Below, piece after piece: positions 40,058 through 57,446 of a stretch of DNA of 64,000 bases (its first letter is position 1; each line of letters opens with the position of its first letter). The translations under genes and the position numbers were made by a program. The DNA comes from Allobosea sp. (GTDB lineage: Bacteria > Pseudomonadota > Alphaproteobacteria > Rhizobiales > Beijerinckiaceae), in contig NZ_JAFKFX010000024.1 in assembly GCF_017308075.1 (NCBI RefSeq), positions 124,001 to 188,000 of the forward strand, in the 5' to 3' direction. The notes beneath the pieces were generated by a model. That model was given only the letters and a program-made list of their open reading frames with translations. It had not been told where the DNA came from and made no database searches.

Positions 40058-40084
40058 GCCCGTATCGGCCTTGTCTTGAAGCGC

Positions 40085-41065
40085 TCAGTCCGGCTTGACG
40101 TTGGCGTCGGCGACGACCTTGCCCCAGCGCGCGACCTCGGCGTTGACGAAGGCGCCAAAAGCCGGGCCGTAGAGATTCGGGGTTTCCGAGCCGTTCTTCT
40201 TCCAGGCTTCGCTGACCATCGGCGCCGCGAGCGCCTTCTTCACCTCCGCCGTCATTTTCTCGACGACCTCCGGCGGCGTGTTCTTCGGCGCCCACATCGC
40301 ATACCAGGTCGAAACCTCGTAGCCGGGCAGGCCGGCCTCAGCCGCGGTCGGCACGTCGGGGAAGGCGGCGGTGCGCTTGGGCGCAGCGACGGCCAGCGCC
40401 CGGAGCTTGCCGCCGGCGATCTGTGCTGCCGAGGAGCCGAGCCCGTCGAAGGCAAGATCGACCTGGCCGGCGACCAAGTCCTGCATCAGCGGGCCGGCAC
40501 CGCGATAAGGCACATGGGTGAAATTGGCCTTCGACATCAGCTTGAACAGTTCACCGGCGAGGTGATGCGTCGTGCCGTTGCCGGCCGAGCCGTAATTGAG
40601 CTTGTCCGGGTTCTTCCGGCCGAACTCGATCAGCTCCGCCAGCGTCTTGGCCTCGACCTTGCCGGGGTGGACGACCACGACCTGGGGCGGCTGCGCGATG
40701 ATACCGATCGGGATGAAGTCGGTCTGGATGTTGTAGTCGAGCTTGGGATAGAGCGCCGGCGCGATGGCGTGGTGGGCCGCGCCGATGAAGAAGGTGTAGC
40801 CGTCGCCCGCCGCCTTGGATGCGGCCGAGGCGCCGACCGTGCCGCCGGCACCGCCGCGATTGTCGATCAGGATGCGCTGTCCGAGCTGCTGCTCGAGCTG
40901 CGCGGCCAGCGGCCGGGCGAAGGCGTCCGTGCCGCCGCCGGCCGGGAAAGGTACGATGAAGCTGACCGGCTTCTGCGGCCAGGCCTGAGCCTGTACCGGC
41001 GCCGAGGGCACGAGCTGGACGAGGGCGGCGAGCGCGATCGCGCCGAGCCAACCGGATTTGAGCAT
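40085..41065 (-). CDS. Bug/TctC-type tripartite tricarboxylate receptor
   Basis: A 326-residue periplasmic receptor of the Bug family with a Sec signal (cleaved near VQAQ, about residue 28). WPQKPVSFIVPFPAGGGTDAFARPLAAQLEQQLGQRILIDNRGGAGGTVGASAASKAAGDGYTF is the diagnostic opening; the Asp following (GGGTD) usually grips a carboxylate. No TctA/TctB membrane genes are nearby, common for Bug orphans. It is 169 bases downstream of the molybdopterin reductase gene on the same strand, ends the catabolic island and begins convergent with recX. The ATG at 41065 is preferred for the GGGGAGG ribosome-binding site. Confidence 0.9.
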   Translation of the reverse strand: MLKSGWLGAIALAALVQLVPSAPVQAQAWPQKPVSFIVPFPAGGGTDAFARPLAAQLEQQLGQRILIDNRGGAGGTVGASAASKAAGDGYTFFIGAAHHAIAPALYPKLDYNIQTDFIPIGIIAQPPQVVVVHPGKVEAKTLAELIEFGRKNPDKLNYGSAGNGTTHHLAGELFKLMSKANFTHVPYRGAGPLMQDLVAGQVDLAFDGLGSSAAQIAGGKLRALAVAAPKRTAAFPDVPTAAEAGLPGYEVSTWYAMWAPKNTPPEVVEKMTAEVKKALAAPMVSEAWKKNGSETPNLYGPAFGAFVNAEVARWGKVVADANVKPD

Positions 41066-41234
41066 TCTGATCCTCCCCAATGGAACGCGGGAGAGGCTCT
41101 TTCCGGCCTCGTGCCCGCCTGCAAGCCCGGCAATGGCAGCCGAGCGTTCGCGAGGATTAGGACATCACTGCTGACGAATGGCAAGAGAGCGCCGCCGCGG
41201 TTCCGCGACCGCCAGTTCGTCCCAAATCGGGGCT

Positions 41235-43547
41235 TCAGATCAGGGTGGGCGGCTCGTAGCAGGTGATCGGCGGAAGCTCGCCCTTATGGCGCTCGATCTC
41301 GACCAGGCAGGAATGGGCGATCGTCGCCTGTCCGAGCCTGGACGAGCCGCGATCCTGGGTCAGCACGTTCGGATTGCCGTGCTTGTCGAGCGAGCCGACG
41401 AGGCCTGGTTCGAGTGGGTCGTACCAGGCGCCCGTCGCCATCTGCACGACGCCTTGCATCACCGCATCGCAGACGACGATGCCGGCGAGACAGGCCCCGC
41501 GGTCGTTGAAGACACGCACGATGTCGCCGTCCGACAGACCACGCAAGCGCGCATCCTCGGGATGGATGCGCAGCGGCTCGCGGCCGGCGATCTTGGTCGA
41601 ACGAGACAGTGCGCCATTGTCGTACTGGCTGTGCAGCTTACTCGCCGGCTGGTTCGAGATGAGATGCAGCGGGAAGCGCTCGGCGAGCGCTGCGCCGAGC
41701 CATTCGCGCGGCACGAGCCAGCTCGGATGGCCCGGACAATCGTCATAGCCGAAGCCTGCGATCCTCTCCGAGAACAGCTCGATACGGCCGGAAGGTGTCT
41801 TCAGCGGCCGGGCTTGCGGATCGGCGACGAATTCGGCCAGCAGCGGCTTTTGATCCTGCGGCTCGGGGAGGGTGACGATGCCGGCCTGCCAGAAGCTCTC
41901 GAAATCCGGCAGTTCCATGCCGTATTCGGCGACGCGCTGGCGCGCCACGGTATAGAAGTGCCTGATCCAGCCCTCCTCGTCGCGGCCTTCGGTGAAGGTC
42001 TCGCGCGCGCCGAGGAGGCCGGCGAGATCGGCGAAGATCTCGTAATCGCTGCGCGCTTCGCCGATCGGCGCGCTGATCGGGTGGCAGGCGGCGATCATTC
42101 GGTCGCGGGCCGAGCTCGCAATGTCGTTGCGCTCCATGGCGGTGCTGGCCGGCAGCACGATGTCGGCATGGCGGGCCGTCGCATTCCACCAGGATTCGTG
42201 GACGATCACCGTCTCCGGCCGGCGCCAGGCCGCGATCAGCCGGTTGATGTCCTGGTGATGATGGAACGGATTGCCGCCGGCCCAGTAGATCAGCCGGATA
42301 TCGGGATAGCGCCGCTTCTCGCCGTTGAAGTCATAGGGCGCCCCCGGATGCAGCAGCGCATCGGCGATCCGCGCAACCGGAATCGAGTCGGCGATGGCGT
42401 TGCTGCCTTGCGGCAGGGTCGGCCAGGAAAACGGATAGACCGCATTGCCCACGCCGTTCGCTGAGGCGTAGCCGAAGCCGAAGCCGCCGCCGGGCAAGCC
42501 GATCTGGCCGATCATTGCGGCGAGCGCGATCGCCATCCAATAGGGCTGCTCGCCATGCTCGGCCCGCTGCAGAGACCAGGACATCATGATCATGGTGCGG
42601 CGCCGGGCCATCTCGCGCACCAGCGCCCGCATCGTTTCGGCCGGAACGCCGGAAATCGCCTGCGCCCATTCGGGGGTCTTGGGCACGCCATCGTCGGCAC
42701 CGATAACATAGCCGGCAAATCGTTCGAAGCCGGTCGTGCAGCGCGCCAGGAATTTCTGATCGTGCAGGCCTTCTTCGATCAGTGTGTGGGCGAGCGCGAG
42801 CATCAGCGCGACATCGGTGTTGGGCCGTGGCGCGATCCATCTGGCATCGAGCTCGGCCATCGCGTCGTCGCGGATCGGGCTGATGCAGACGAAGGAGGCC
42901 CCCTGGTCGCGACAAGCGGTCAGGCCCTCGCGCAATAGATGGCGGCTGATGCCGCCTGAGCCGACCTGCGCGTTCTTGTGCGGGGCGCCGCCGAACATCA
43001 CGATCAGTTCGGCATGGCCGGCGAGCTGGCCCCAGCTCGTGTGCCCGGCGTCGAGGCCGCGCTTGTCGCCGAGCACATGCGGCAGGATCGCGTCGGCCGC
43101 GGCGAAGCTGTAGTTCGAGATTGAGCGGACATAGCCGCCGACCGCGTTCAGGAAGCGATGCACCTGGCTCTGGGCGTGATGGAAGCGGCCGGCGCTCGAC
43201 CAGCCATAGGAGCCGCCGAAGATCGCGCCATTGCCATGGCTTTCGCGCACCCGCTCGATCTCGCGCGCCACGAGATCGAGTGCCTGCGGCCAGTCGATCT
43301 CGACGAAGGGCTCAGCCCCGCGTCCGGCGCCGCCGGCGGTAGCGCCCTTTTCGAGGAAGGAAGCGCGCACCGAGGGCCGCCTGATCCGGCAGCCATCGTC
43401 CAGCGCGCCGATCATCGAGGCGCCGAGCGGGGAGGGGTCGGGATCGTGCTCATAGGGTTCGAGCGCGACGGCCGCCCCGTCCTGCATCCGCGCCCGATAG
43501 ACGCCCCAATGGGTGGTGACGGTCGGCTGCTCGGGCGTGATCAGCAT
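41235..43547 (-). CDS. Molybdopterin oxidoreductase, BisC/TorA (DMSO reductase) type
   Basis: A 770-residue bis-MGD molybdoenzyme. The serine molybdenum ligand is in GGSYGWSSAG, S118 most likely. GGAPHKNAQVGSGGISRH, PRPNTDVALMLALAHTLIEEGLHD, MSWSLQRAEHGEQPYWMAIALAAMIGQIGLPGGGFGFGY and AGGNPFHHHQDINRLI are core motifs. There is no N-terminal Fe-S cysteine set and no Tat signal, so it is a cytoplasmic biotin-sulfoxide-reductase-like enzyme, using an unknown S- or N-oxide. Its 19-base gap after the FAD oxidase stop shows it is the last gene of the long catabolic operon. Its role in that pathway is unclear. Confidence 0.88.
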   Translation of the reverse strand: MLITPEQPTVTTHWGVYRARMQDGAAVALEPYEHDPDPSPLGASMIGALDDGCRIRRPSVRASFLEKGATAGGAGRGAEPFVEIDWPQALDLVAREIERVRESHGNGAIFGGSYGWSSAGRFHHAQSQVHRFLNAVGGYVRSISNYSFAAADAILPHVLGDKRGLDAGHTSWGQLAGHAELIVMFGGAPHKNAQVGSGGISRHLLREGLTACRDQGASFVCISPIRDDAMAELDARWIAPRPNTDVALMLALAHTLIEEGLHDQKFLARCTTGFERFAGYVIGADDGVPKTPEWAQAISGVPAETMRALVREMARRRTMIMMSWSLQRAEHGEQPYWMAIALAAMIGQIGLPGGGFGFGYASANGVGNAVYPFSWPTLPQGSNAIADSIPVARIADALLHPGAPYDFNGEKRRYPDIRLIYWAGGNPFHHHQDINRLIAAWRRPETVIVHESWWNATARHADIVLPASTAMERNDIASSARDRMIAACHPISAPIGEARSDYEIFADLAGLLGARETFTEGRDEEGWIRHFYTVARQRVAEYGMELPDFESFWQAGIVTLPEPQDQKPLLAEFVADPQARPLKTPSGRIELFSERIAGFGYDDCPGHPSWLVPREWLGAALAERFPLHLISNQPASKLHSQYDNGALSRSTKIAGREPLRIHPEDARLRGLSDGDIVRVFNDRGACLAGIVVCDAVMQGVVQMATGAWYDPLEPGLVGSLDKHGNPNVLTQDRGSSRLGQATIAHSCLVEIERHKGELPPITCYEPPTLI

Positions 43548-43566
43548 GGCATTGCCTTATTTTCCG

Positions 43567-44955
43567 TCAGAGGGTGGCGCTCATGCCGAGCTTGCCGGGG
43601 TTCATGATCCCGTGCGGGTCGAGCGCCAGCTTCAGCGCCCCCATGACCTCGATGCCATTGCCGTGCTCGCGCCGCAGATATTTCAGCTTTCCGAGGCCGA
43701 CGCCATGCTCGCCGCTGGCGGTCCCGCCGGATTCCAGGGCGCGCATCACGACGTTCTCGGCCAGGCGCTTGGCCTCGGCGACTTCCTCCTCGGCATCGGG
43801 CATGACGAGATAGGAGACGTGGAAATTCCCGTCGCCGACATGGCCGTTGATCTTGAACTTCAGGAAGGAGGCGTCGCCATCGGCCCGGGCCGCGGTCATG
43901 TTGTCCGCCAGTGCCGAGATCGGCACGCAGGCGTCGGTCACGAACATCGCCGCACCCGGACGCATGGCGCGCGTCGCCGGGTTGGAATCGTGGCGGGCCT
44001 TCCACAGGCGTTCGCGATCCTCGCGTTGCGTGGCCCACTGGAAGCCGCGTCCGCCATTCTCGGCCGCGAGCGCCTCGACGATTTCGGCCTGCTCGCGGAT
44101 GCCGGCCTCGGTGCCGTGGAATTCGAGGAACAGGGTCGGCGCGACCGCGAGGCTCATCTTGGAGTAGTGGTTCGAGGCCGCGATCGCGATGTCGTCGAGG
44201 AACTCGATGCGGGCGATCGGCACGCCGCTCTGGATCGTGGCGATACAGGTGTCGACGGCGCCCTTCAGGCTGTCGAAGGGGCAGACCGCCGCCGAGATCG
44301 CGGCCGGCACCGGATGCAGCCGAAGCGTGATCTTGGTCAGCACGCCCAGCGTTCCCTCGGCGCCGACGAAGAGCTTGGTCAGGTCGTAGCCCGTCGAGGA
44401 TTTGCGCGCCCGGCTTCCGGTGCGCAGCAATTCGCCGTTCGGCAACACCACTTCGAGCGCCAGCACGTTCTCGCGCATGGTGCCGTAGCGCACCGCATTG
44501 GTGCCGCTGGCGCGGGTCGAGGCCATGCCGCCGATCGAGGCGTCGGCGCCGGGATCGACCGGGAAGGTCAGCCCCGTCGCGCGCAGATGCTCGTTGAGGG
44601 CCTTGCGCGTCACGCCGGGCTCGACCACCACGTCGAAATCGCTCTCATGCACGGCGAGGACGCGGTTCATCCGCGACATGTCGAGGCTGACGCCCCCGGC
44701 GACGGCGAGAATCTGGCCCTCCATCGAGCTGCCGACGCCATAGGGCACGATCGGTACGCGCGCCGCCGCGCAGGCCGCGACGACGCGCTGCACTTCGGCG
44801 GTCGACTGCACGAAAACCACCGCATCCGGCAGCATGGTCGGCAGATAGGAAAGATCCTCGCCATGGTGTCGGCGGACCGCCTCGGCGGTCGAGATCCGCT
44901 CGCCGAAATGCGCGCGCAGGGTTTCGACGACGGCCGCCGTATCGCCATAGCTCAT
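43567..44955 (-). CDS. FAD-linked oxidase, D-lactate/glycolate (GlcD-like) type
   Basis: A 462-residue flavoprotein of the VAO-type. The FAD-binding region has VVAACAAARVPIVPYGVGSSMEGQILAVAGGVSLDMSRMNR, VDPGADASIGGMASTRASGTNAVRYGTMRENVLALEVVLPNGEL and GYDLTKLFVGAEGTLGVLTKITLRL; the C-terminal cap ends SGGTASGEHGVGLGKLKYLRREHG and LALDPHGIMNPGKLG. These enzymes oxidise D-2-hydroxy acids to 2-oxo acids and pass electrons to quinone or cytochrome c. Placed between the CMD-like and molybdopterin genes, it probably oxidises an intermediate of this locus. Specific substrate unknown. Confidence 0.9.
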   Translation of the reverse strand: MSYGDTAAVVETLRAHFGERISTAEAVRRHHGEDLSYLPTMLPDAVVFVQSTAEVQRVVAACAAARVPIVPYGVGSSMEGQILAVAGGVSLDMSRMNRVLAVHESDFDVVVEPGVTRKALNEHLRATGLTFPVDPGADASIGGMASTRASGTNAVRYGTMRENVLALEVVLPNGELLRTGSRARKSSTGYDLTKLFVGAEGTLGVLTKITLRLHPVPAAISAAVCPFDSLKGAVDTCIATIQSGVPIARIEFLDDIAIAASNHYSKMSLAVAPTLFLEFHGTEAGIREQAEIVEALAAENGGRGFQWATQREDRERLWKARHDSNPATRAMRPGAAMFVTDACVPISALADNMTAARADGDASFLKFKINGHVGDGNFHVSYLVMPDAEEEVAEAKRLAENVVMRALESGGTASGEHGVGLGKLKYLRREHGNGIEVMGALKLALDPHGIMNPGKLGMSATL

Positions 44956-45031
44956 GATCGCAATCCATCTGTCTGCAGGTCCGCCCCCGGCATGCGCGTG
45001 GCATCGGGGGCGGGTTCGCTCGGCAAGCCGC

Positions 45032-45424
45032 TTACCCGAGCGAGGGGTCGATCGGAACCCGGTAGCCGTTGACCAGGCGATTGGTCTCGTTGGCCATGCC
45101 GACCACCGCCATCACCTCGCCGAACATCGCGTCGGTCATCCCGGCCTTGCGGGCGGCGGCGGTATGGCTGGCGATGCAGTAGCCGCAGCCATTGCTGGTG
45201 CTGACCGCGAGATAGATCATCTCCTTGACCAGCGGGTCGAGCGCGCCTGGCGCCATCACCTCCTTCACGCTCTCCCAGGTACGCCGCAGACCAATGGGAT
45301 CATGTGCGAGGTACTTCCAGAAGTTGTTGACGTCCTTGAGGTTCCGCGAGGTCTTGATGTCGTCGTAGACGGCGCGGACCGCTGGCGGCGCGTCGGCATA
45401 TTCGATCGGCTTCAATCGGCTCAT
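45032..45424 (-). CDS. Carboxymuconolactone decarboxylase/AhpD-like protein
   Basis: A 130-residue protein of the CMD/AhpD fold. NGCGYCIASHTAAARKAGM carries the Cys-x-x-Cys-x3-His motif (C80, C83, H87), which in AhpD-like members is the redox/peroxidase site; true 4-carboxymuconolactone decarboxylases lack the cysteine pair, so a peroxidase or redox-sensing role is more likely. GGAGA precedes the ATG at 45424. It is the seventh gene of the 50796-41235 operon. In a sulfonate/peroxide-generating pathway it could protect against oxidative by-products of the flavoenzyme; this is inference. Confidence 0.85.
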   Translation of the reverse strand: MSRLKPIEYADAPPAVRAVYDDIKTSRNLKDVNNFWKYLAHDPIGLRRTWESVKEVMAPGALDPLVKEMIYLAVSTSNGCGYCIASHTAAARKAGMTDAMFGEVMAVVGMANETNRLVNGYRVPIDPSLG

Positions 45425-45478
45425 CTTGATGTCTCCGGTATGGTCGTTCGGGGTTCGGCAGGATCGCTGCGAACGCCG

Positions 45479-46126
45479 TCAGATGTTGAGCTCGATACCC
45501 TTCTTGCGGAGCAGCTCGCTCAGATTGAGCATGTCCCAGGTCGTCTTGCCCTGGAGCAGCTCGCGGCGGAAACGGGCTTCCTTCTCCTCGCGGGTCTTGG
45601 ACGCCGCGGCGATGGCGACGATCTCCGCCTTCGGCACGATGCAGACGCCGTCATCGTCGCCAATCACGAGGTCGCCGGGCTCGATCAGCATGCCGCCGGC
45701 AACGATCGGCTTGTTCAGCGCGCCGAGCGTTTCCTTCACCGAGCCCTTGATCGACAAGGCGCGCGCGAAGACCGGGAAGCCGATCTCGGCGATGGTCGCG
45801 CCGTCGCGCACGCCGCCGTCGACGACGAGGCCGGCAATGCCCTTGCCCATGGCGCAGCTGGCCATCACATCGCCGAACAGGCCCTGCTCGGTGAAGCCGG
45901 CCGAGGCGCAGACGATGACGTCGCCTGCCTTCGCCATCTTCAGCGCCGCGTGCAAGGTGAGGTTGTCGCCGGGCGGGCAGACGCAGGTGAAGGCCGGGCC
46001 CAGCACCTTCATGCCGCGCCGGACGGGCTTGATGCTGGAATCGAGCGCGCCGCGGCGTTCCATGGCTTCATGGGCGGTAGCCGAGGCGACCGAAGCATAG
46101 GCTTCGCGATAGTTGAATTCGGTCAT
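45479..46126 (-). CDS. RraA-family aldolase-like protein, copy 1
   Basis: A 215-residue protein of the RraA/4-hydroxy-4-methyl-2-oxoglutarate aldolase family. VVDGGVRDGATIAEIGFPVFA holds the conserved Arg107-Asp108 pair that binds substrate and metal; GDLVIGDDDGVCIVP is the second family motif, and TEQGLFGDVMASC is the pyruvate-side loop. With these residues present it is more likely a metal-dependent aldolase or decarboxylase than the RNase E regulator RraA. It is closest to copy 2 (48405-49076), and lies 23 bases downstream of the enolase-superfamily gene. A frame open to 46378 overlaps that gene and is not used. Confidence 0.88.
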   Translation of the reverse strand: MTEFNYREAYASVASATAHEAMERRGALDSSIKPVRRGMKVLGPAFTCVCPPGDNLTLHAALKMAKAGDVIVCASAGFTEQGLFGDVMASCAMGKGIAGLVVDGGVRDGATIAEIGFPVFARALSIKGSVKETLGALNKPIVAGGMLIEPGDLVIGDDDGVCIVPKAEIVAIAAASKTREEKEARFRRELLQGKTTWDMLNLSELLRKKGIELNI

Positions 46127-46149
46127 GATCTCTATCCGATGAAGGAGGG

Positions 46150-47340
46150 TCAGCGGGTGACGTTGGCTACGCCCCAGACGTAGTTCTTCCGGGGGAATTC
46201 TTCCCAGTACTGGCGCATGTCCTTGTGCGGGAAATCCTTGTATGGCCGCTTGCGCATGCGCTCGACATCGATGTCGACGCCGAGGCCCGGCGCGGTCGGC
46301 AGGTCGATCCAGCCATCCTCGACCTTCAGCCCGGGCGAGCCGATCTCGTCGCAGGCCTCGTTGAGGTTGATGAAGCACTCGGCGATCAGGAAGTTCGGGA
46401 TCACCGCCGAGAAATGCACCGTCGCGGCGAGCCCGACGATGGTGCTGTTGTAGTTGTGCGGGCTGATCGCGATCGCGTGCGGCTGCGCCATCGCTGCGAT
46501 GTCGAGCATCTGCTGAAGGCCGCCGACGGCGCAGATGTCGGGGTTGAGGATATCGGCCGCGCGCTTCTCGAAGACCCGGGCGAAATCCTCCTTGGTATAG
46601 AGGGTTTCGCCGGTCACGACGGGCGTCGAGATCGCGCGGCGGACTTCCGCGACGAGGTCGAGATTGTCGGAGAGGCAGGGCTCCTCATAGCAGAAGATGC
46701 CGTATTCCTCGAGCCGCTTGGCGACGCGGATGGAATGATGCGGCGCGACGCGGCGGTGCGCGTCGATCAGCAGGTCCATGTCGGGGCCTAGCGCCTCGCG
46801 CATCGCCTTGACGTTGGCGACGGCGTAATCCTCCTCCTCGCGCGTGATGAAGGTTCGCCACGGCCCGGGGAACGGGTCCCATTTCAGCGCCGTATAGCCC
46901 ATCTCCTTGACCTGGAGCGCCCGCTCCACCGTCGACTCGATATCGGTGACGCCGTACCACCAGCCATTGGCGTAGACGCGGACCTTCTCGCGCGAGGCGC
47001 CGCCGAGCAGGTTGTAGAGTGGCTGTCCGGCCTTCTTGCCGACGATGTCCCACATCGCCAGCTCGATCGCGCTCCAGGCGCAGAAGAAGTCGACCGAGGA
47101 GCGCCTGATGGCGAAGTCGTCGAACATCACCTGTGCGGTGTGGCGGATATTGTGCGGGCTGCGCCCGATCACATAGGGCGCCATGGCGCGGATATAGTCG
47201 TCGACGACCTTCTCCTTCTTCACACCGACATAGGATTCGCCCCAGCCATAGAGGCCGTCATCGGTCTCGATGCGGCAGAACAGCAGGTTCTTGCCGCTGC
47301 CGGGGTGGAAGAAGAAGGTTTCGATACGCGCGATCTTCAT
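46150..47340 (-). CDS. Enolase-superfamily (mandelate racemase/galactonate dehydratase-like) protein
   Basis: A 396-residue barrel enzyme. The N-terminal capping domain is followed by the barrel with D193 and H195 (LLIDAHRR), E219-E220 (YEEPC), E245 (GETLYTKEDF) and H295 (ISPHNYNST), the ligand and acid/base set of the galactonate-dehydratase branch. The mandelate-racemase KxK motif is absent; LKWDP stands there instead. Such enzymes dehydrate acid sugars or other hydroxy acids to 2-keto-3-deoxy acids. The ATG at 47340 follows GGAG by six bases. Position between quinone oxidoreductase and RraA copy 1 suggests its keto-acid product is cleaved by an RraA-type aldolase. Confidence 0.9.
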   Translation of the reverse strand: MKIARIETFFFHPGSGKNLLFCRIETDDGLYGWGESYVGVKKEKVVDDYIRAMAPYVIGRSPHNIRHTAQVMFDDFAIRRSSVDFFCAWSAIELAMWDIVGKKAGQPLYNLLGGASREKVRVYANGWWYGVTDIESTVERALQVKEMGYTALKWDPFPGPWRTFITREEEDYAVANVKAMREALGPDMDLLIDAHRRVAPHHSIRVAKRLEEYGIFCYEEPCLSDNLDLVAEVRRAISTPVVTGETLYTKEDFARVFEKRAADILNPDICAVGGLQQMLDIAAMAQPHAIAISPHNYNSTIVGLAATVHFSAVIPNFLIAECFINLNEACDEIGSPGLKVEDGWIDLPTAPGLGVDIDVERMRKRPYKDFPHKDMRQYWEEFPRKNYVWGVANVTR

Positions 47341-47360
47341 CGCCAGCTCCGGAATTGGGG

Positions 47361-48335: not shown

Positions 48336-48404
48336 GTCTTGTCCTTCATTTTATTCATCTTGAATCGGGCTGCCGGCTGCCGGCATCCGGGAGATCGCGT
48401 GTCG

Positions 48405-49076: not shown

Positions 49077-49096
49077 GGCGGCTCTCGTCAAAAACG

Positions 49097-50023: not shown

Positions 50024-50796
50024 TTCTCGGGCGCCACGATCGCGGCCGTCTCGGCGGCCGACGCGCCGGTGCTGATCGCGTCGATCAGCGTCTTCTCCTT
50101 GGCGGCGACCTCCTCGGCCCGCGCCAGCACTTCGGCGGCGATGGAAAGCGGCACGACGATGACGCCGTCGGAATCGCCGAGCATCAGGTCGCCCGGACGG
50201 ATCTGCACGCCGGCGATCTCGACGATGCCGTTGAACTCCAGCAGCTCGAAACGGTGCTTGCCGGTGCGCGGCGTCGCCCCGCGCGCCCAGACCGGCAGGC
50301 CCATGCGGCGCATCGCGTCGGTATCGCGCACGCAGCCGTCGACGACGACGCCGGCAAAGCCGTGCGCGGCGACGGCGGTCGCCATGATGCCGCCGATGTT
50401 CGAGGCAGCCGGGCAGGCGCTGCCGTCGATCACCATCACGTCGCCGCGCTGCGACAAAGTCACCGCGTCGAGCGCACCGAGGCGAGGGGAGGTCTTGTTG
50501 GCGATGTTGTAGCCGCTGGTCAGCCGGGCGGCGCCGTGCTTGACCGTGATGGCTGGGCCGACCATGCGCTGGCCCGGCGCGATCGGCGGCAGGGCCGTCG
50601 TCGGGATCGCCGAGTCGACGCCGTACTCGTCGAGGATGTCGGCGATGGCGGAGGTCAGGTCGGGCAATTGCCGGAAGCGCGCCACCAGATCCGCCGACGG
50701 ACGCTCGAATGCGACGGCGCGGATACGCTCGACCGGGATCGTTCCGAGGAGCCGGCCCTCATAGGCGGCGAGCTGTTTTTCGATGCTGGTTGTCAT
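50017..50796 (-). CDS. RraA-family aldolase-like protein, copy 3
   Basis: A 259-residue longer RraA-family member, the first gene of the nine-gene operon. It has a 40-residue N-terminal extension (EGRLLGTIPVERIRAVAFERPSAD), then DAVTLSQRGDVMVIDGSACPAASNIGGIMATAV and VVDGCVRDTDAMRRMGLPVWARG with Arg157-Asp158, and GDLMLGDSDGVIVVPLSIAAEVLARAEE. It is only distantly similar to copies 1 and 2 and closer in layout to copy 4. A palindromic region precedes it, divergent from a LysR gene, so LysR control is likely. Probable metal-dependent aldolase/decarboxylase. Confidence 0.88.
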   Translation of the reverse strand: MTTSIEKQLAAYEGRLLGTIPVERIRAVAFERPSADLVARFRQLPDLTSAIADILDEYGVDSAIPTTALPPIAPGQRMVGPAITVKHGAARLTSGYNIANKTSPRLGALDAVTLSQRGDVMVIDGSACPAASNIGGIMATAVAAHGFAGVVVDGCVRDTDAMRRMGLPVWARGATPRTGKHRFELLEFNGIVEIAGVQIRPGDLMLGDSDGVIVVPLSIAAEVLARAEEVAAKEKTLIDAISTGASAAETAAIVAPEKW

Positions 50797-50832
50797 GCCG
50801 CTGAACGCGCCTCGTACCGATTGCTCGATTCA

Positions 50833-50855
50833 ATGGCATGCGCTTCGCATGCCAT
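50833..50855. promoter_or_regulatory. Palindrome upstream of the RraA copy 3 operon
   Basis: ATGGCATGCG and CGCATGCCAT pair perfectly around a CTT centre, starting 37 bases before the operon's ATG. Further symmetric sites follow in the same gap: GAATT-A-AATTC at 50861-50871 and GGATCGATCC at 50975-50984. The 266-base gap between 50797 and 51062 is relatively AT-rich and is the regulatory region for the operon and the divergent LysR gene. Confidence 0.55.
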
Positions 50856-51005
50856 AAAGCGAATTAAATTCAGTTTCATCGATCGCAAAAATGCATCATT
50901 CTTGCTCGGCCTTCCTGAGTGGCAAGAGTCGGTGTTTCTCGTATTTGTCTCGCCAGGATCGGTAATTCTCAGCTGGATCGATCCGGATCGAAAAAGCGAC
51001 CAAGT

Positions 51006-51034
51006 TTGACTTGAGTGATTGCTTTTTCTATTCG
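51006..51034 (+). promoter_or_regulatory. Putative sigma-70 promoter of the lysR gene
   Basis: TTGACT (51006-51011), 17-base spacer, TATTCG (51029-51034), 28 bases before the ATG at 51063. The -35 is one base from consensus. Prediction by eye. Confidence 0.4.
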
Positions 51035-51062
51035 GTCTATGGACCGGCGAAAGGGGCCAGCC

Positions 51063-51989
51063 ATGTTGACCTTCAAGCAAATCGAAGCCGCCTACTGGAT
51101 CAGCAAGCTCGGCAGCTTCCATGCCGCGGCGAAACGGCTCAACACGACCCAGTCGACCGTCTCCAAGCGCATCGCCGAGCTCGAAAAATACCTCTCGATC
51201 GAGATTTTCGACCGCAGCAACAAGACGACGCAGCTCACCATCAAGGGGCGCGAGCTGATCGACGATTTCGTCCAGATGCTCGATCTGCAGCAGAACGTCG
51301 TGCGCCGCGTCGGCAGTGACGTTTCCTATGCCGGGCGCTTCCGCTTCGGCGTGACCGAGATGGTCGCCCTGACCTGGCTCCCGGCCCTGATCGCCGGCAT
51401 CAAGCAGCTCTATCCGGACATCATCCTCGAGCCGAAGATCGATCTGACCGTCAATCTGCGCCAGCAGATGGTCACGCATCGGCTCGACATGATCATCTGC
51501 CCGGCGCCAAAGACCGACAACAGCTTCCCGACGGTGCCGCTCGACTTCCTGGAATCGGAGTGGATGTGCAGCCCCTCGCTGGTGGGAGCGAAGGGCGTCG
51601 TGCCGATCGAGCGCCTGATGGAGCTGCCGCTGCTGACCTATGCCGAGGGCTCGCTGCTGCATCTCAACCTGCTGCAGGCGCTGGCGGCGATCGACATCAA
51701 GCCGCAGAACACCATCACCTGCAACAGCATGATCGCGCTGGCGGAAATGGCGAGCGCCGGGCTCGGCATCACCTATCTGCCGACCGGCTACTTTTCCGCC
51801 TATCGCCAGGAGGGCTATCTCAGGCCAGTGCGGACCAATCTCGTCCTGCCGCCGCTCGAATACCTCGCCGTTCATCGCAACGACGCCGTCAGCCGCAGGA
51901 TCGCGCAGCTGGCGCGCGAGACCTGCGATTTCGGGATCCCGCGCTGGCGCCGGCCGGAGGAGGCCAGCGCCGCCCGCGAGGCGTCCTGA
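51063..51989 (+). CDS. LysR family transcriptional regulator of the catabolic island
   Basis: A 308-residue LysR protein. Helix-turn-helix in residues 1-60 (LTFKQIEAAYWISKLGSFHAAAKRLNTTQSTVSKRIAELEKYLSIEIFDRSNKTTQLTIKG) and a two-lobed effector domain from about residue 90 (GRFRFGVTEMVALTWLPALIAGIKQLYPDI). It is divergent from the nine-gene operon and convergent with RraA copy 4, central to the island, and the likely pathway sensor for a substrate or intermediate. I chose the ATG at 51063 (AAAGGGG seven bases upstream); an ATG at 51015 would add 16 residues inside the promoter. Confidence 0.92.
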   Translation: MLTFKQIEAAYWISKLGSFHAAAKRLNTTQSTVSKRIAELEKYLSIEIFDRSNKTTQLTIKGRELIDDFVQMLDLQQNVVRRVGSDVSYAGRFRFGVTEMVALTWLPALIAGIKQLYPDIILEPKIDLTVNLRQQMVTHRLDMIICPAPKTDNSFPTVPLDFLESEWMCSPSLVGAKGVVPIERLMELPLLTYAEGSLLHLNLLQALAAIDIKPQNTITCNSMIALAEMASAGLGITYLPTGYFSAYRQEGYLRPVRTNLVLPPLEYLAVHRNDAVSRRIAQLARETCDFGIPRWRRPEEASAAREAS

Positions 51990-52003
51990 GCGGGCATGCT
52001 CAG
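51986..52003. terminator. Hairpin containing both stop codons of lysR and RraA copy 4
   Basis: CTGAGC (51986-51991) pairs with GCTCAG (51998-52003) around GGGCAT. The left arm contains the lysR TGA, the right the complement of the RraA copy 4 TGA. Same architecture as at 27752-27771. Short stem, no T-tail. Confidence 0.35.
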
Positions 52004-52683
52004 CGCACCTTGTATTTGCGCACCGCATCCTGGAGCGTCGCGCCGGTGCGCATGAAGCCCTGCATCTCCTCCTCGACCTCGACGAGCTCATGTGCCTTGG
52101 CGGCGATCGCGCCGGCCTGGGCCGGGTCGATGACGATGACGCCATCGGCATCGCCGACGATGATGTCGCCGGGGCGGATCAGCACGCCGGCGCAGATCAC
52201 CGGCTCGTTGCGGATCGCGGTCGCAAAGCGGAAGTGACCGGCGCGCGGCGAGGTGCCTTGCGCGAAGATCGTCATGCCGAGCGGCCCCATTTCTTCGAGG
52301 TCGCGGATCGCGCCGTCGGTGATCAGGCCGAGCGCCCCGACCGCGGCCGCCCGCGTCGCCATGTTGCCACCCCAGTTGGCATGGGTGGCGATGCCCTGCG
52401 TCGCGATCACCATGATCGAGCCGGGACCACAGCCGTCGATCACCTCCTGGATCGCCAGCGAGAATTCGGGCTTGATCTCTTGCTGGCCGCCATTGGAGGG
52501 CAGGGGGACGCGCCCGATCGTCCGGGCGCGTCCGAGAATGCGCTTGCCGACGAGCAGGCGCACGGACGGGCCGAGCGCCGTATCCTTGAGCCCGAGCGCG
52601 AACATCGCGTCGGACAGGGTCGAGACCTGCAGGTGCTCGAACTGGGAGAGCTCGGGATCGTTGGCGGGGGTGGCTGAGGACAT
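52000..52683 (-). CDS. RraA-family aldolase-like protein, copy 4
   Basis: A 227-residue RraA-family protein. ITDGAIRDLEEMGPLGMTIFAQG gives Arg127-Asp128, GDIIVGDADGVIVIDPAQAGAIAAKAHELVEVEEEM is the second motif, and HANWGGNMATRAAAVGALG replaces the FGDVM loop of copies 1 and 2, so its substrate may differ. GGAGA precedes the ATG at 52683 by six bases. It ends the second minus-strand operon, 74 bases after the Bug receptor. Probable metal-dependent aldolase or decarboxylase; RNase E control is less likely for a gene in this setting. Confidence 0.88.
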   Translation of the reverse strand: MSSATPANDPELSQFEHLQVSTLSDAMFALGLKDTALGPSVRLLVGKRILGRARTIGRVPLPSNGGQQEIKPEFSLAIQEVIDGCGPGSIMVIATQGIATHANWGGNMATRAAAVGALGLITDGAIRDLEEMGPLGMTIFAQGTSPRAGHFRFATAIRNEPVICAGVLIRPGDIIVGDADGVIVIDPAQAGAIAAKAHELVEVEEEMQGFMRTGATLQDAVRKYKVR

Positions 52684-52757
52684 GATCGTCTCCTGGGCAT
52701 CGGAGCCCGGCCGGCCAGGGGCGGGCGTTCGGTGAAATGGGGGCCGTCTCGGCCGGG

Positions 52758-53732
52758 CTATTGCGGCTTGAGGCCGGCGGTCTCGGCCGCCGCCTTCCAT
52801 TTGATCAGCTCGGAGCCGACGCGCTTGCGCAGTGCCTCCGGGGTGTCGGGCGCGGGCAGGAAGCCGATCTCATAGAGGCGCGCACGCAGGGCAGGGCTCG
52901 CCACGGCGTCGCTGAAGGCCTTGCCGAGTTTCTCGACTATCGGCTTCGGGGTTCCGGCCGGCGCGAAGACGCCGCTCCAGGAATAGGCTTCGACCGGGGT
53001 GCCGGCCTCCGCCATGGTCGGCAGGTCCGGCGCGTTCGCGGCGCGTATCCCGGCGGCGATCGCCAGGCGGCGCAAGCTGCCATCGGCGATATAGGGCTCG
53101 GTCGCGGCGAAGGTGTCGAACATGAAGGTCAGCCGGCCGCCGAGCAGCTCGGTGATGGCCGGCGCCGAGCCGCGGAAGGGCACATGGGCGGCCTCGACCC
53201 CGGCCGCCGTCTTGAACAGCTCGCCGGCGAGGTGGAGCGGTCCGCCGACGCCGGAGGAGCCGTAATTGATCTTGCCGGGATTGGCCTTGAGATAGGCGAC
53301 CAGCTCGGCCACGGTCTTCGCCGGCACATCGCGGTTCACCACCAGCACGAGCGGCACCTCGGCCAGCATCGCGACGGGCTCGAAGCTCGTCTGCGCGTCG
53401 AAGCCCAGCGACTTGTAGAGCGCCTGGTTCATACCATGGGTCGCAGCCGTGCCGAGCAGCAGCGTATAGCCGTCCGGCGCGGCACGCGCGACGGCGCTCG
53501 CCGCGATATTGCCGGCGCCGCCGACGCGGTTGTCGATCACCAGCGATTGCTTGATCGCCTCCGAAACGCCCGGCGAGATCAGGCGCATGAAGATGTCCTG
53601 GCCACCACCGGCGGCGAAGGGCACGAGAATGGTGACGGGGCGGGCAGGGTAGTCCTGCGCCAGTGCCGGCGAATGCCCCAGTGCCGCGCAGGCGGCAGCG
53701 GCCATGCCGCCGAGGAAGGTTCTGCGGTCCAC
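52758..53732 (-). CDS. Bug/TctC-type receptor with Tat-like signal
   Basis: A 324-residue Bug-family periplasmic receptor. The N-terminus DRRTFLGGMAAAACAALGHSPALAQ carries twin arginines followed by a hydrophobic stretch, so export may use Tat. YPARPVTILVPFAAGGGQDIFMRLISPGVSEAIKQSLVIDNRVGGAGNIAASAVARAAPDGYTLLLG is the Bug core; GGGQD replaces GGGTD. The start is GTG at 53732. It follows the ABC permease by 55 bases, which is unusual: a Bug receptor and an ABC importer in one operon. Ligand likely a carboxylate. Confidence 0.9.
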   Translation of the reverse strand: MDRRTFLGGMAAAACAALGHSPALAQDYPARPVTILVPFAAGGGQDIFMRLISPGVSEAIKQSLVIDNRVGGAGNIAASAVARAAPDGYTLLLGTAATHGMNQALYKSLGFDAQTSFEPVAMLAEVPLVLVVNRDVPAKTVAELVAYLKANPGKINYGSSGVGGPLHLAGELFKTAAGVEAAHVPFRGSAPAITELLGGRLTFMFDTFAATEPYIADGSLRRLAIAAGIRAANAPDLPTMAEAGTPVEAYSWSGVFAPAGTPKPIVEKLGKAFSDAVASPALRARLYEIGFLPAPDTPEALRKRVGSELIKWKAAAETAGLKPQ

Positions 53733-53787
53733 GATATCGGTCCTTTTCGAGCGTTGGACGGGGGCGGCATCAGGTGCCGCCGCCGGA

Positions 53788-54693
53788 TCAGTTCTGCATG
53801 CCCCAGCGCCGGATCGTGGCCGCCTCGATGCTCCGGAAGACCACCCCCTCGACGATCAGTCCGATGACGATCACCGTGAAGAGTCCGGCGAAGACATGCG
53901 CGGTTTCGAGCGCGTTGCGGTTCTGGAAAATGTACCAGCCGAGACCGGCCGAGCTGCCCGAGACGCCGAAGACCAGTTCGGCCGCGATCAGCGTGCGCCA
54001 GGCGAAGGCCCAGCCGATCTTGAGCCCGGCCAGGATCGAGGGAAACGCCGCCGGGATCAGGATGGAGAGCACCATGCGCAGGCCACCCAGCCCGTAATTG
54101 CGGCCGACCATGCGCTGCGTCTGACTCACCGAAAGGAAGCCGGTGAAGGCGTTGAGCGAGACCGCCCACAAGACCGAATGCACGATCACGAAGATCAGGC
54201 TCTCCAGGCCGAGGCCGAACCAGAGCAGCGCCAGCGGCAGGATCGCGATCGCCGGCAGCGGGTTGAACATCGCAGTCAGCGTCGCCAGCAGGTCGGTGCC
54301 GATCCGCGTCGAGATCGCGATCGTGGTCAGGACCGCGGCGAGCAGCACGGCCGTGCCATAGCCGATCAGCAGCACGCGCACCGAATTGCCGACCGCCGAA
54401 AGCAGGACACCGCTCGACATGTCGGTCGTCCAGGCAACCAGCGTGTCGCTCAGCGAGGGAAACATCAGCGGGTTGTCGGCGAAGCGCGCATAGACCTCCC
54501 AGAGGATGCCGAGCGCGATCAGCACCATACCCCGACGCAGCGGCGTATGCGCCATGGCACGCTGCCAGAGCCCGACATCGCGGACGATCTCGCCGATAGC
54601 CGCGGCGTCGAGCGTCTGGTGCTCGATGCTCGGGCGTGCCGGCAGTTCCTTGAAGCGCGTCCGGCCGCGCATGGCGTGAATCGCCTCAGCCAT
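53788..54693 (-). CDS. ABC transporter permease, SsuC/TauC/NrtB type
   Basis: A 301-residue membrane protein with about six helices, of the BPD_transp_1 class. MVLIALGILWEVYARFADNPLMFPSLSDTLVAW starts the first helix as in sulfonate/taurine/nitrate permeases, and the coupling loop NYGLGGLRMVLSILIPAAFPSILAGLKIGWAFAWRTLIAAELV contains the EAA motif. It overlaps neither neighbour but is only eight bases from the ATPase stop. With 54702-55526 and 55531-56535 it makes a complete importer. Confidence 0.9.
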   Translation of the reverse strand: MAEAIHAMRGRTRFKELPARPSIEHQTLDAAAIGEIVRDVGLWQRAMAHTPLRRGMVLIALGILWEVYARFADNPLMFPSLSDTLVAWTTDMSSGVLLSAVGNSVRVLLIGYGTAVLLAAVLTTIAISTRIGTDLLATLTAMFNPLPAIAILPLALLWFGLGLESLIFVIVHSVLWAVSLNAFTGFLSVSQTQRMVGRNYGLGGLRMVLSILIPAAFPSILAGLKIGWAFAWRTLIAAELVFGVSGSSAGLGWYIFQNRNALETAHVFAGLFTVIVIGLIVEGVVFRSIEAATIRRWGMQN

Positions 54694-54701
54694 CGACCTG
54701 C

Positions 54702-55526
54702 CTATCCATGTGCGATCTTCTCCTCGCCGAAGAGCATGCCGTTGATCTTGCGATTGAAGGCCATGAACTCCTCGCTGCCGGCGTCCTCCTGCTTGAAGGG
54801 CGTGGCATCGAGTTCGGCGCGGATCTGGCCGGGGTGAGGGGTCATCACCACGATCCGGCTGCCGATCACGATCGCCTCCTGGATCGAGTGCGTGACGAAG
54901 ACCAGGGTGAAGCGGATCTCGTTCCAGAGCTCGAGCAGCTCATCCTGCATGCGCCGGCGCGTCAGCGCGTCGAGCGCCGCGAACGGCTCGTCCATCAGCA
55001 GGATCTCGGGCTCCATGGCGAGTGCCCGGGCGATGGCGACGCGCTGCTTCATGCCGCCCGATAGGGTGTGGGGGTGGCTGTCGGCGAATTTGGCGAGCCC
55101 GACCTTCTCGACCGCGCGCATGGCCCGGTCTCGCCATTCCGAGCGCGGAAAGCGCCCGGTCTTGCGCATCGGGAACATCACATTGCCGAGCACGGTCTGC
55201 CAGGGCAGGAGCTGGTCGAACTCCTGGAAGACCATCATCCGGTCGGCCCCCGGGCCGGAGATGCGCTTGCCGGCAAGGCTGATCTCGCCCTCGACCGGTG
55301 ACAGGAAGCCGCCAATGCCCTTGAGCAGCGTCGATTTCCCGCAGCCGGACGGGCCGAGCAGGATGAAGCGGTCCTGCCGCTGCACGTCGAAGGAGACGCG
55401 GTAGGTCGCCGTGACGATCTGGCGGCGCGTCTGGTACTGGAGCGTCACGTCGCGGACGCTCAGCAGGGGCGTCGCCGCCTGCTGAGCCTGCACTTCCATC
55501 GGCTCGCGCATCATAGCAAGAGCCAT
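54702..55526 (-). CDS. ABC transporter ATP-binding protein, SsuB/TauB type
   Basis: A 274-residue ATPase. Walker A GPSGCGKST at residues 58-66, Q-loop VFQEFDQLLPW, signature TLSGGMKQR, Walker B LLMDEPFAALD and H-loop VTHSIQEAIVIG are all intact. The FDALTR-like ALDALTRRRMQDELLELW region is characteristic of the nitrate/sulfonate/taurine class. It starts four bases after the binding-protein stop. Several in-frame ATGs occur near the N-terminus; I use the first, at 55526. Confidence 0.9.
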   Translation of the reverse strand: MALAMMREPMEVQAQQAATPLLSVRDVTLQYQTRRQIVTATYRVSFDVQRQDRFILLGPSGCGKSTLLKGIGGFLSPVEGEISLAGKRISGPGADRMMVFQEFDQLLPWQTVLGNVMFPMRKTGRFPRSEWRDRAMRAVEKVGLAKFADSHPHTLSGGMKQRVAIARALAMEPEILLMDEPFAALDALTRRRMQDELLELWNEIRFTLVFVTHSIQEAIVIGSRIVVMTPHPGQIRAELDATPFKQEDAGSEEFMAFNRKINGMLFGEEKIAHG

Positions 55527-55530
55527 CGCA

Positions 55531-56535
55531 CTAGCTGCCGGAGCCCTGGTTGACGGGCGGGAAGAACACGTCCTGCCACTTGGCCGGCGCGGCTTTCAAT
55601 TGCCCGAGCTTCACCATGAAATTGGCAGTGTCGATGATGCCGTTCGGCTCGGTCGTGTATTCGTTCTTGTTGTTCTCGATGACCTTGAGCATCTCCTCGG
55701 CCGAGAGCTTGCTCGGCTCGGCGGCGGTGTAGATCTTGGCTGTTTCGGCGACCTCGCTCTGGATGAAGCGTCCAGCCTCGTCGAGCGCCGCGACCACCGC
55801 GGAAGACAGCTCCTTGTTCTCCTCGACGAACTTCCTGAGCACGCCGACCACGCCATTGGTCATGTTCGGCGGATTGTACTCCGTCGTCCGGCCGATGACG
55901 TGGACGTTCGGCTGCTGCGCCAGGAACTCGGCGAAGGGCGACAGCGCGAAATAGACCTGGACCGTATTGCCGGTGGTCAGCGCCGCGACCGCATCCGGAT
56001 GGGGCAGGGAGACGATCTGCTTGTCGAAGCGCAGCGCCTCGCCCGGGCCGAAAATCTTCTCGGCGGCACGGCGCAGGATCAGCGCCTGCGAGCTCGTCGG
56101 GCCCGGCGTCGCGACCTTGTCGGTCGGGCGGATGTCCTTCAGCGACTTGATCGCCGGGTCGTTGGCGAAGATCGTGTAGACGCCCTTCCAATAGGCGCTG
56201 AGCCCGCCGAGATCGTAGGCGCGCCGGGTCTTCTCATGGGCGATCAGCAGGCCGAGCGTACCGAGCGCGCCGACCTGGATGTTGCCGCTGATCAGCCCCT
56301 CGGTGATCGCTGTCGGACCGCTCAGGCGCACGAAGTTAATCTTGGGATCGCGCACGCCCGCCTTCTCGGCCGCCTTGGTGAACAGGCCCTGCCGCTCGGC
56401 AACGATAAAATTCAGATAGGGCAGGCCATATTGGATCGCAAAAGTGATCGGCTTGGTTTGCGCCCAGACGGCCGGCGCGGGCAGGGCCAGCGTGGCCGCC
56501 GTTCCCGCTAACAGCTTGCGGCGATTAAGATTCAT
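55531..56535 (-). CDS. ABC transporter substrate-binding protein, SsuA/TauA/NrtA-like
   Basis: A 334-residue periplasmic protein with a Tat-like leader (NRRKLLAGTAATLALPAPAVWAQ, cleavage near residue 26). The mature part begins ITFAIQYGLPYLNFIVAERQGLFTKAAEKAG and contains RLSGPTAITEGLISGNIQVGALGTLGLLIAHEKT, the aliphatic-sulfonate/nitrate/taurine receptor pattern. ATG at 56535. It is the first gene of the second minus-strand operon, whose promoter should be in 56536-56700. Ligand could be a sulfonate or a small carboxylate; unknown. Confidence 0.9.
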   Translation of the reverse strand: MNLNRRKLLAGTAATLALPAPAVWAQTKPITFAIQYGLPYLNFIVAERQGLFTKAAEKAGVRDPKINFVRLSGPTAITEGLISGNIQVGALGTLGLLIAHEKTRRAYDLGGLSAYWKGVYTIFANDPAIKSLKDIRPTDKVATPGPTSSQALILRRAAEKIFGPGEALRFDKQIVSLPHPDAVAALTTGNTVQVYFALSPFAEFLAQQPNVHVIGRTTEYNPPNMTNGVVGVLRKFVEENKELSSAVVAALDEAGRFIQSEVAETAKIYTAAEPSKLSAEEMLKVIENNKNEYTTEPNGIIDTANFMVKLGQLKAAPAKWQDVFFPPVNQGSGS

Positions 56536-56907
56536 GACGTTTCAATCCCCATTGAGAAGGTCGATCTGTGCCGACTACTTAGATGGGGCTTTGCCCCTGG
56601 GACCAGCCTAAAACTGGAGAGCATGAAGTAAAGAGAACAATGTTCAGCTACGACAATCGCTTTTTGGAATTATCATCTACGCAACGGGGCAGCTGGAGAG
56701 CATTGGTCTCGCGCCGTTTGGGCGATCATTGCGTCGGCCGCCGCCGGCCGCTCGAAAACTCCGAGTCGCCGGTGTTCGGCTCTGGCCGGGACCGAAGCGT
56801 GCCGGGAACGGCAGCCGAGCAGCGCGTCAGCGAAAGACAACCCAAGATGGAATCGAGCTGTATCTGGACAGTTTCGATACGTGCGTTAAGCTGACTAAAG
56901 GGAAGGG
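56536..56907. other. Intergenic region upstream of the ABC operon
   Basis: About 372 bases between divergent genes, noticeably less GC-rich than the rest (for example 56620-56690). It contains GGGGC-TTT-GCCCC at 56585-56597, 50 bases upstream of the binding-protein ATG, which may be regulatory. I see no credible coding gene, though a 60-codon frame is open. Confidence 0.45.
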
Positions 56908-57300: not shown

Positions 57301-57446
57301 TGCGCGCCGCGGCTGGACGGAGCAGGCGGACATTCGCCAGTTTGTCTGCCTGCGCCTCAATAGCCACGATTCGCATAAGACATATTATGGAACTTAAATC
57401 TGACCCATGGAGCTGCAGACGGCCGGCGCTTACATGAGCCGCCTCG

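Follow-up and report, generated by a model that had tools for sequence, protein, structure and literature searches.

A mobile gene block with four RraA-family genes and an enolase-superfamily gene at the replication terminus of an Allobosea genome

What might four RraA-family genes be doing together in one small region of a bacterial chromosome? The question is raised by a stretch of 64,000 nucleotides from Allobosea sp. (RefSeq assembly GCF_017308075.1, contig NZ_JAFKFX010000024.1, positions 124,001 to 188,000 of the forward strand), here called the window, and to our knowledge few RraA-fold proteins have an assigned reaction. An earlier, sequence-only reading had described a catabolic island at 40085..56535 with the four RraA genes, an enolase-superfamily gene, two receptor types and a LysR regulator. 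Our best reading of the locus is a mobile, selected catabolic module. All four RraA-fold genes are recovered as PF03737 matches on the minus strand, and they lie in the window as follows, together with their closest partners and the mobile unit:

45479 to 46126, minus strand: RraA1, similar to aldolases of 4-hydroxy-4-methyl-2-oxoglutarate (HMG) and 4-carboxy-4-hydroxy-2-oxoadipate (CHA) (PF03737; NF006731 221.7 bits, cut-off 179)
46150 to 47340, minus strand: Eno, of the mandelate racemase/muconate lactonizing enzyme (MR/MLE) type in the enolase superfamily, acid-sugar-dehydratase-like (PF13378, PF02746)
48405 to 49076, minus strand: RraA2, HMG/CHA-aldolase-like (PF03737; NF006731 207.8 bits, cut-off 179)
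49097 to 50023, minus strand: DUF1932, 6-phosphogluconate-dehydrogenase-like (PF09130, PF03446; PDB relatives 3qsg and 4ezb)
50017 to 50796, minus strand: RraA3, RraA-fold, without several HMG/CHA-aldolase residues (PF03737, 126.8 bits)
52000 to 52683, minus strand: RraA4, RraA-fold, without several HMG/CHA-aldolase residues (PF03737 over its cut-off; NF006093 115.9 bits, below the cut-off of 208)
41252 to 56671, no strand: segment common to the window and genome G536, taken as the mobile unit (85.9% DNA identity)

The actual unit comprises 15 genes at about 41.2-56.7 kb of the window, a revision of the earlier bounds that comes from comparison with a third genome of the same genus (G536), where all 15 genes occur in identical order at an unrelated site between unrelated flanks. 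In two other same-genus genomes (G132 and G552) the site is empty of the block, and the order there is a RecX-like gene, a TctC receptor gene, a metallo-beta-lactamase-fold hydrolase gene and two genes that we take to be TatD and MetG. Their TctC receptor is 87-88% identical to the one at 40085 in the window and is present at the same place without the block, so the 40085 receptor belongs to the backbone; of the two receptor types named earlier, this copy drops out, while the receptor Bug2 and that of an ATP-binding cassette (ABC) importer do lie within the block. The RecX-TatD interval of G536 holds other genes, and its copy of the block lies, in record coordinates, 3.26 Mb away from the dif-like site of that genome, or 2.2 Mb the shorter way if the molecule is circular. 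An empty site in two genomes and a whole copy elsewhere in a third mark the block as a genomic island, as had been supposed.

Within the block, nine contiguous minus-strand genes run in the order RraA3, DUF1932, RraA2, quinone oxidoreductase-like gene (QOR), Eno, RraA1, AhpD, GlcD and molybdopterin oxidoreductase gene (MoOR), with gaps of -7 to 76 bases. This is the nine-gene operon described before, in which the AhpD/carboxymuconolactone-decarboxylase (CMD) family gene at 45032-45424 had gone unnamed. A second minus-strand run comprises the ABC substrate-binding protein, ATPase and permease, Bug2 and RraA4, and the LysR gene stands between both operons, divergent from the nine-gene one. Positions 56672-57367 fall in neither comparison (G536 or the sister genomes) and hold one small open reading frame that matched no Pfam family. 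Rfam gave no match at gathering thresholds in 40000-58300, PADLOC gave none for two proteins, and repeats other than the RraA genes within the block were judged chance-like.

Homology with the two sister genomes starts again at 57368, where the following sequence lies:

57371 to 57399, plus strand: dif-like site TCGCATAAGACATATTATGGAACTTAAAT, at which octamer polarity flips

This sequence, which we take to resemble dif, places the end of the block about 0.7 kb from the chromosomal dif site. Its last 28 bases occur once each in 19 of the 41 same-genus genomes sampled (own included), and the other 22 gave no match at up to two mismatches. Over the 400 kb of G552 that have the site at their centre, the octamer GGGNAGGG, presumably the FtsK-orienting polar sequence (KOPS), occurs 49 times forward and 5 times reverse on the left, against 4 and 35 times on the right; an open count over the same stretch ranked GGGCAGGG as the most polarised octamer. 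The turnover of GC skew in G552 is less sharp and falls 30-70 kb to the left. Counts of GGGNAGGG in the window follow the same pattern (19 to 1 left of the site and 0 to 5 right of it, with 10 to 0 inside the block). The insertion site of the block is thus the replication terminus. The RecX-TatD interval around the dif-like site is itself variable, a terminus hot spot for gene exchange: the distance, taken in 32 of the 36 same-genus genomes (out of 41) with a RecX match, is below 6 kb in 11 of them, ranges overall from 2 to 84 kb and is 18 kb here. Integration by Xer recombination was considered and rejected, because the dif-like sequence is single, with no second copy in the window at up to three mismatches, and does not stand at both block ends.

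Comparison of the window with G536 also bears on selection. Thirteen block genes (all but the ABC permease and LysR genes) have proteins 85-96% identical, and four flanking genes 70-86%, at nearly the same divergence of 4-fold sites, 0.334 in the block (769/2299) and 0.340 in the flanks (213/627). Block proteins that are more alike at equal 4-fold-site divergence indicate that the block is a functional set under purifying selection. In this pair the block is, as far as such sites can tell, not visibly younger than the backbone; a recent transfer between the two genomes was rejected on the equal divergence, which may be partly saturated.

The four distinct RraA genes lie within 7.2 kb of each other, in a 5.55-Mb genome with nine RraA-like matches. 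Nine randomly placed genes would be expected to give about 1e-6 foursomes within that distance, but RraA1 and RraA2, 60.1% identical, represent a duplication. In a tree of 37 rows, RraA2, RraA3 and RraA4 each form one clade (support 99/98, 96/98 and 99/99), and the RraA2 clade falls among the RraA1 rows, which indicates three old RraA lineages and one duplicate; branches within RraA1 have moderate support, and the deepest forks little. The tree omits a 175-residue row of L013, a truncated row of L018, four rows of L023 (same species as L017), L020, G536, G560 and the X letters of the masked L014 rows; the residue table was made without the L020 and G536 rows and the alignment used for folding without L014. 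The structure model of RraA3, with a mean predicted local distance difference test (pLDDT) score of 52.6, was too poor for use.

Residue comparison with the HMG/CHA aldolase (LigK/ProA/GalC; PDB 3NOJ, Pseudomonas putida F1), which is of the same fold family, separates the four copies into two pairs. RraA1 and RraA2 keep its nine polar or charged active-site residues together with G101 and G144, that is R40, N71, H75, G101, D102, R123, D124, G144, K147, R195 and E199 in P. putida numbering, and so do the syntenic rows except L029 (E102 in RraA1, K195 in RraA2). RraA1 departs from the P. putida enzyme by V for L103 and S for T145, with V103 found throughout the RraA1/RraA2 rows. They also branch apart from that enzyme in the tree and have no aromatic ring cleavage in their genomic context. 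In the window's RraA3 and RraA4, G101, R123, D124, G144 and E199 are kept, G stands at 102 and R at 147, and positions 40, 71, 75 and 195 differ; of the six residues D102, R123, D124, E199, N71 and K147, all are thus kept in the first pair and only R123, D124 and E199 in the second. The Arg-Asp pair noted earlier is indeed present in all four copies. The second motif ascribed to all four is exact only in RraA1 and RraA2, as GDxxIGDxDGxxxVP, with two of its gaps one residue longer than first written, while RraA3 has GDLMLGD and RraA4 has GDIIVGDADGVIVID. RraA3 (82.1 bits) and RraA4 (89.6 bits) likewise stay below the NF006731 cut-off of 179 that the first pair exceeds. The earlier idea of several aldolases therefore has to be divided: judged by residue, an aldolase assignment is sound for RraA1 and RraA2 and no more than tentative for RraA3 and RraA4.

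Another reading is that the RraA copies of the block are oxaloacetate-type beta-keto-acid decarboxylases, or regulatory or structural subunits, and not aldolases, which the G at 102 and R at 147 of RraA3 and RraA4 would suit. The HMG/CHA aldolase itself decarboxylates oxaloacetate too, and its N71A and K147A variants each have an HMG kcat lowered 1114-fold (available text of PMC5065237). These two residues, required for full HMG cleavage, are kept in RraA1 and RraA2, and all four copies miss the NF006875 cut-off for RNase E regulators (61.6, 68.0, 70.0 and 51.8 bits for RraA1 to RraA4; cut-off 136). We consider this explanation unlikely.

Eno matches the N- and C-terminal MR/MLE domains, both over the Pfam cut-off, and among solved structures its nearest neighbours are mostly putative or known acid-sugar dehydratases. 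Its model (mean pLDDT 75) reaches a Foldseek TM-score of 0.81, by query length, against the putative dehydratase 2POZ. Fold and domain make-up are those of the galactonate, gluconate and mannonate dehydratases (2POZ, 3RR1, 3QKE), from which Eno differs by its identity of 25-32% to the structures in the 50 Foldseek rows listed, by missing curated cut-offs and by a conserved C-terminal tail. As an identity, the galactonate-dehydratase label given before finds no support, since Eno scores 250.5 bits with PRK14017 (cut-off 311) and 267 with NF040790 (cut-off 750), both models of D-galactonate dehydratase. In close relatives the tail, residues about 366-396 (FPHKDMRQYWEEFPRKNYVWGVANVTR), hardly varies; L021 lacks its end.

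Which of these genes belong together was assessed from relatives. Of 61 same-genus genomes, the own one among them, three have Eno, and these three are also the ones with RraA3. In wider samples, with the own genome counted, Eno was found in 3 of 149 genomes of the family (the others at 89% and 61% identity; E-value limit 1e-80), 3 of 397 of the order (81% and 66%; 1e-120), 3 of 385 of the class (48% and 50%; 1e-110) and 1 of 398 of the phylum (1e-110). The same gene set, which the sequence-only reading had suggested seeking elsewhere, is complete in G536 and has variants in other alpha- and betaproteobacteria. Eleven relatives with an Eno at least 77% identical were compared over about 10 kb on either side: G536 (96%), G405 (81%) and nine at 77-89%, namely Polaromonas, a Rhizobiales metagenome-assembled genome, Bordetella trematum, Mesorhizobium, Shinella, Bosea sp. 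BH3, two Azospirillum and Allopusillimonas. The same-genus genome G560 is identical to Bosea sp. BH3 over 19,026 bases. Among plasmid hits, H2 and H5 were examined, with H1, H3, H4 and H6-H9 outside the comparison, as were L053 and L054 (Eno 48-50%).

RraA1 adjoins Eno in all 11 relatives, in agreement with the coupling of the two that had been suggested, and the adjacency is kept in L024, where Eno is 61% identical. The DUF1932 gene is likewise present in 11 of 11 and RraA3 in 10, the contig of L014 starting inside DUF1932; the LysR gene was found in nine within the stretch compared. RraA2, GlcD and MoOR occur together in five relatives, RraA4 is present in five, AhpD in six, TctC in seven and the ABC importer in four. 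QOR, counted before as an operon member, holds its position only in the window and G536, hence in one of the 11 relatives. The common core is therefore Eno, RraA1, RraA3 and DUF1932, with variable importers and Mo/FAD enzymes. Gene calls show RraA3 and DUF1932 overlapping by 7 bases in the window, L013, L015, L017, L018, L022, L024, L029 and G536; a TctB gene takes that place in L019, L016 is called with a gap, and L014 and L020 have no call.

Gene content, mobility, conservation, co-inheritance and residue identity are read directly from these genomes, and we infer from them each of the reactions that follow. We propose, at a little short of an even chance, that the block is a mobile module for a polyhydroxy, probably di- or tricarboxylic, acid, from which Eno would form a 2-keto-3-deoxy acid for RraA1 and RraA2 to cleave into pyruvate and a second oxo acid. 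Uptake would be served by the TctC receptor and/or the ABC importer, which take each other's place from one genome to the next; the organic-acid uptake envisaged before fits these importers of carboxylate-type families, with genes for TctA and TctB too in four relatives. Eno would remove water from an alpha,beta-dihydroxy acid, and RraA1, helped by its duplicate RraA2, would act as a divalent-metal pyruvate aldolase of the HMG/CHA type on a 4-hydroxy-2-oxo acid, probably one that, like HMG and CHA, carries a C4 carboxylate, the second product being a 2-oxo acid. The adjacency of Eno and RraA1, the kept residues and the transporter families support this reading. With a pentarate (2,3,4-trihydroxyglutarate), Eno would give 4-hydroxy-2-oxoglutarate, and RraA1 would release pyruvate and glyoxylate; this simple fit is our first guess for the substrate, and a quite unlikely one. 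RraA3 and the overlapping DUF1932 dehydrogenase may catalyse a step of their own that is coupled to these, with a hydroxyacid/oxo-acid pair as a possible substrate, GlcD and MoOR would be accessory oxidoreductases of one subtype, and LysR probably senses the substrate.

DUF1932 also leads to a different route. As a 6-phosphogluconate-dehydrogenase-like protein with a weak match to L-threonate dehydrogenase (35 bits against 350), it could reduce tartronate semialdehyde if Eno formed 2-keto-3-deoxyhexarate and an RraA protein split this into pyruvate and the semialdehyde, or else dehydrated and decarboxylated it in the manner of the enzyme FlDet. The GarD-GarL-GarR hexarate route of E. coli is analogous, with a dehydratase, a pyruvate aldolase and a 6-phosphogluconate-dehydrogenase-like reductase, of which the dehydratase and aldolase families differ from those of the block. 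FlDet, an RraA-fold 2-keto-3-deoxyhexarate dehydratase/decarboxylase from Flavobacterium UMI-01, yields alpha-ketoglutaric semialdehyde (KGSA) and is 20% identical to the P. putida HMG/CHA aldolase; the available text mentions no enolase-superfamily partner, unlike in the block (PMC8563752). The Allobosea genome also has, at another locus, an RraA gene that overlaps a split galactarate/altronate dehydratase. However, RraA1 keeps the HMG/CHA residues, and keto-deoxyhexarates would be without the C4 carboxylate of HMG and CHA; the scanned block genes include no KGSA dehydrogenase family, and DUF1932 is below all NCBIfam cut-offs. We regard a hexarate route as rather unlikely.

The HMG-aldolase residues kept by RraA1 and RraA2 would also suit the end of a lignin or aromatic pathway, with Eno as a hydratase converting 4-carboxy-2-hydroxypentadienoate to HMG, which the two RraA proteins would split into two pyruvates. 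In the mhq cluster for degradation of 5,5'-dehydrodivanillate (DDVA) in Paenibacillus sp. B2, a gene annotated as mannonate dehydratase adjoins an HMG-aldolase gene, as in the block; such genes are close together in Agrobacterium sp. B1, and a hydratase role has been proposed (available text of PMC12673573). The mhq cluster differs from the block in having aromatic ring-cleavage genes, and the same text does not mention DUF1932, RraA3 or TctC. The scanned block genes include neither a ring-cleaving dioxygenase nor a C-C hydrolase family, and the conserved core also has RraA3 and DUF1932. We give this explanation the lowest probability of those considered.

Several observations weigh against the proposal that Eno supplies a keto-deoxy acid to RraA1 and RraA2. 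One structural neighbour of Eno, 5OLC, is a cycloisomerase and not a dehydratase, and Eno lies below every NCBIfam dehydratase cut-off among those listed. RraA1 (205.3 bits) and RraA2 (185.0 bits) miss the TIGR02798 LigK/PcmE cut-off of 304.5. For the P. putida enzyme, the roles of N71 and K147 are termed not elucidated, and H75A and R40A alter kcat little (available text of PMC5065237). The requirement for a C4 carboxylate is our deduction from the structures of HMG and CHA. No RraA1 stands beside the Eno homologues of L030 (66%), L025 (61%) and L021 (52%). RraA3 and DUF1932 are less conserved in relatives than Eno, with DUF1932 down to 37% identity in L018, so that its orthology is not sure throughout and the RraA3 and DUF1932 proteins of relatives may differ in function. 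Proximity to dehydratases is not a general trait of RraA genes: it was seen at 2 of 28 loci and in 1 of 116 control stretches (neighbours within 1.5 kb; three queries for dehydratases; control taken from a single stretch of one genome), and a general rule of that kind was rejected. Lastly, RraA4, MoOR and AhpD are not explained by the proposal.

The component enzyme families are known, and the open-licence literature, the scope of our search (most subscription papers lie outside it), yielded no described pathway that combines them, in line with the earlier statement. Among published systems, in the text available, FlDet and the DDVA dehydratase-aldolase pair come closest. MR/MLE and tripartite tricarboxylate transporter genes also occur in arylmalonate decarboxylase clusters, for which PMC4996985 makes no mention of RraA. 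An enolase-superfamily dehydratase feeding an HMG/CHA-type RraA would mean that the terminal aldolase of aromatic meta-cleavage pathways was recruited for a sugar-acid-like substrate, and that three old RraA lineages serve different steps, two of them by as yet unassigned chemistry; we hold this possible, at somewhat under an even chance. Four co-inherited RraA paralogues with defined partners are gathered in one small cluster, and substrate screening of the block could assign three RraA lineages, the DUF1932 dehydrogenase and an enolase-superfamily subgroup together.

Domain scans bear out the families given earlier for Eno, DUF1932 and most of the remaining genes of the block, which are:

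41235 to 43547, minus strand: MoOR, molybdopterin oxidoreductase related to BisC/TorA S-/N-oxide reductases (PF00384, PF01568, PF18364), narrowly below the BisC-family model TIGR00509 (995.5 bits, cut-off 1017.55)
43567 to 44955, minus strand: GlcD-type FAD-linked oxidase, by family a putative 2-hydroxyacid dehydrogenase (PF02913, PF01565; TIGR00387 315 bits, below the cut-off of 567.9)
45032 to 45424, minus strand: small AhpD/CMD-family protein (PF02627 68 bits; TIGR00778 over its cut-off)
47361 to 48335, minus strand: QOR, quinone oxidoreductase-like (PF00107, PF08240)
51063 to 51989, plus strand: LysR-family regulator (PF00126, PF03466)
52758 to 53732, minus strand: Bug2, TctC-type solute receptor (PF03401 229 bits; PDB relatives include terephthalate-binding and Bug proteins)
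53788 to 54693, minus strand: ABC importer permease (PF00528)
54702 to 55526, minus strand: ABC importer ATPase (PF00005; nearest models taurine and nitrate, below their cut-offs; NF008421 211 bits, cut-off 357)
55531 to 56535, minus strand: ABC substrate-binding protein, NMT1/SsuA-like (PF13379; TIGR01728 below its cut-off)

The tripartite tricarboxylate transporter is incomplete, as scans of the block gave TctC without TctA and TctB; both are annotated in L024, and genes of both families occur in L018, L019 and L022. A search for dyads, covering the LysR-RraA3 interval and the region upstream of the ABC genes, gave no candidate operator that the window shares. A similar dyad (TCGGAATnATnCCGA) stands upstream of the ABC receptor gene once in L017 (3413-3427) and twice in L029 (16683-16739), with no copy at up to one mismatch in the window or the other scanned cluster loci, G536 stretches included. 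In Bosea sp. BH3 (L018, 519-4581), a MoOR 69% identical to that of the window lies near an FMN-dependent 2-hydroxyacid dehydrogenase gene, again a MoOR with a hydroxyacid oxidase family.

RraA genes elsewhere were surveyed as well, and 25 of 41 genomes sampled from the order (own included) have an RraA-fold match. At L001 (G000:C44), the Allobosea genome has a CHA aldolase gene over both curated cut-offs (TIGR02798 372.5 bits), beside genes for a PIG-L family protein and a 4-oxalomesaconate tautomerase-like protein, likely a set for 4,5-cleavage of gallate or protocatechuate. Because the genome has this separate CHA aldolase, RraA1 and RraA2 are not needed for the CHA pathway, and a canonical protocatechuate 4,5-cleavage role for them was rejected, L001 fitting that role. 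Two further RraA genes of the genome also appear in sugar-acid contexts. The one at L064 (3941-6098; G000:C4) overlaps the two-gene galactarate/altronate dehydratase mentioned above, split into SAF and GD_AH domains. The other, at L065 (5035-10531; G000:C34), is near a TctC receptor gene, with a GntR-like regulator gene also there and dihydrodipicolinate-synthase-type aldolase-like and IlvD/Edd-type dehydratase-like genes about 3 kb away, these last three named by eye. On the Azospirillum plasmid of L024 (4634-6458), a further RraA gene adjoins a ketopantoate-reductase-family gene, in an arrangement like that of the RraA3-DUF1932 pair.

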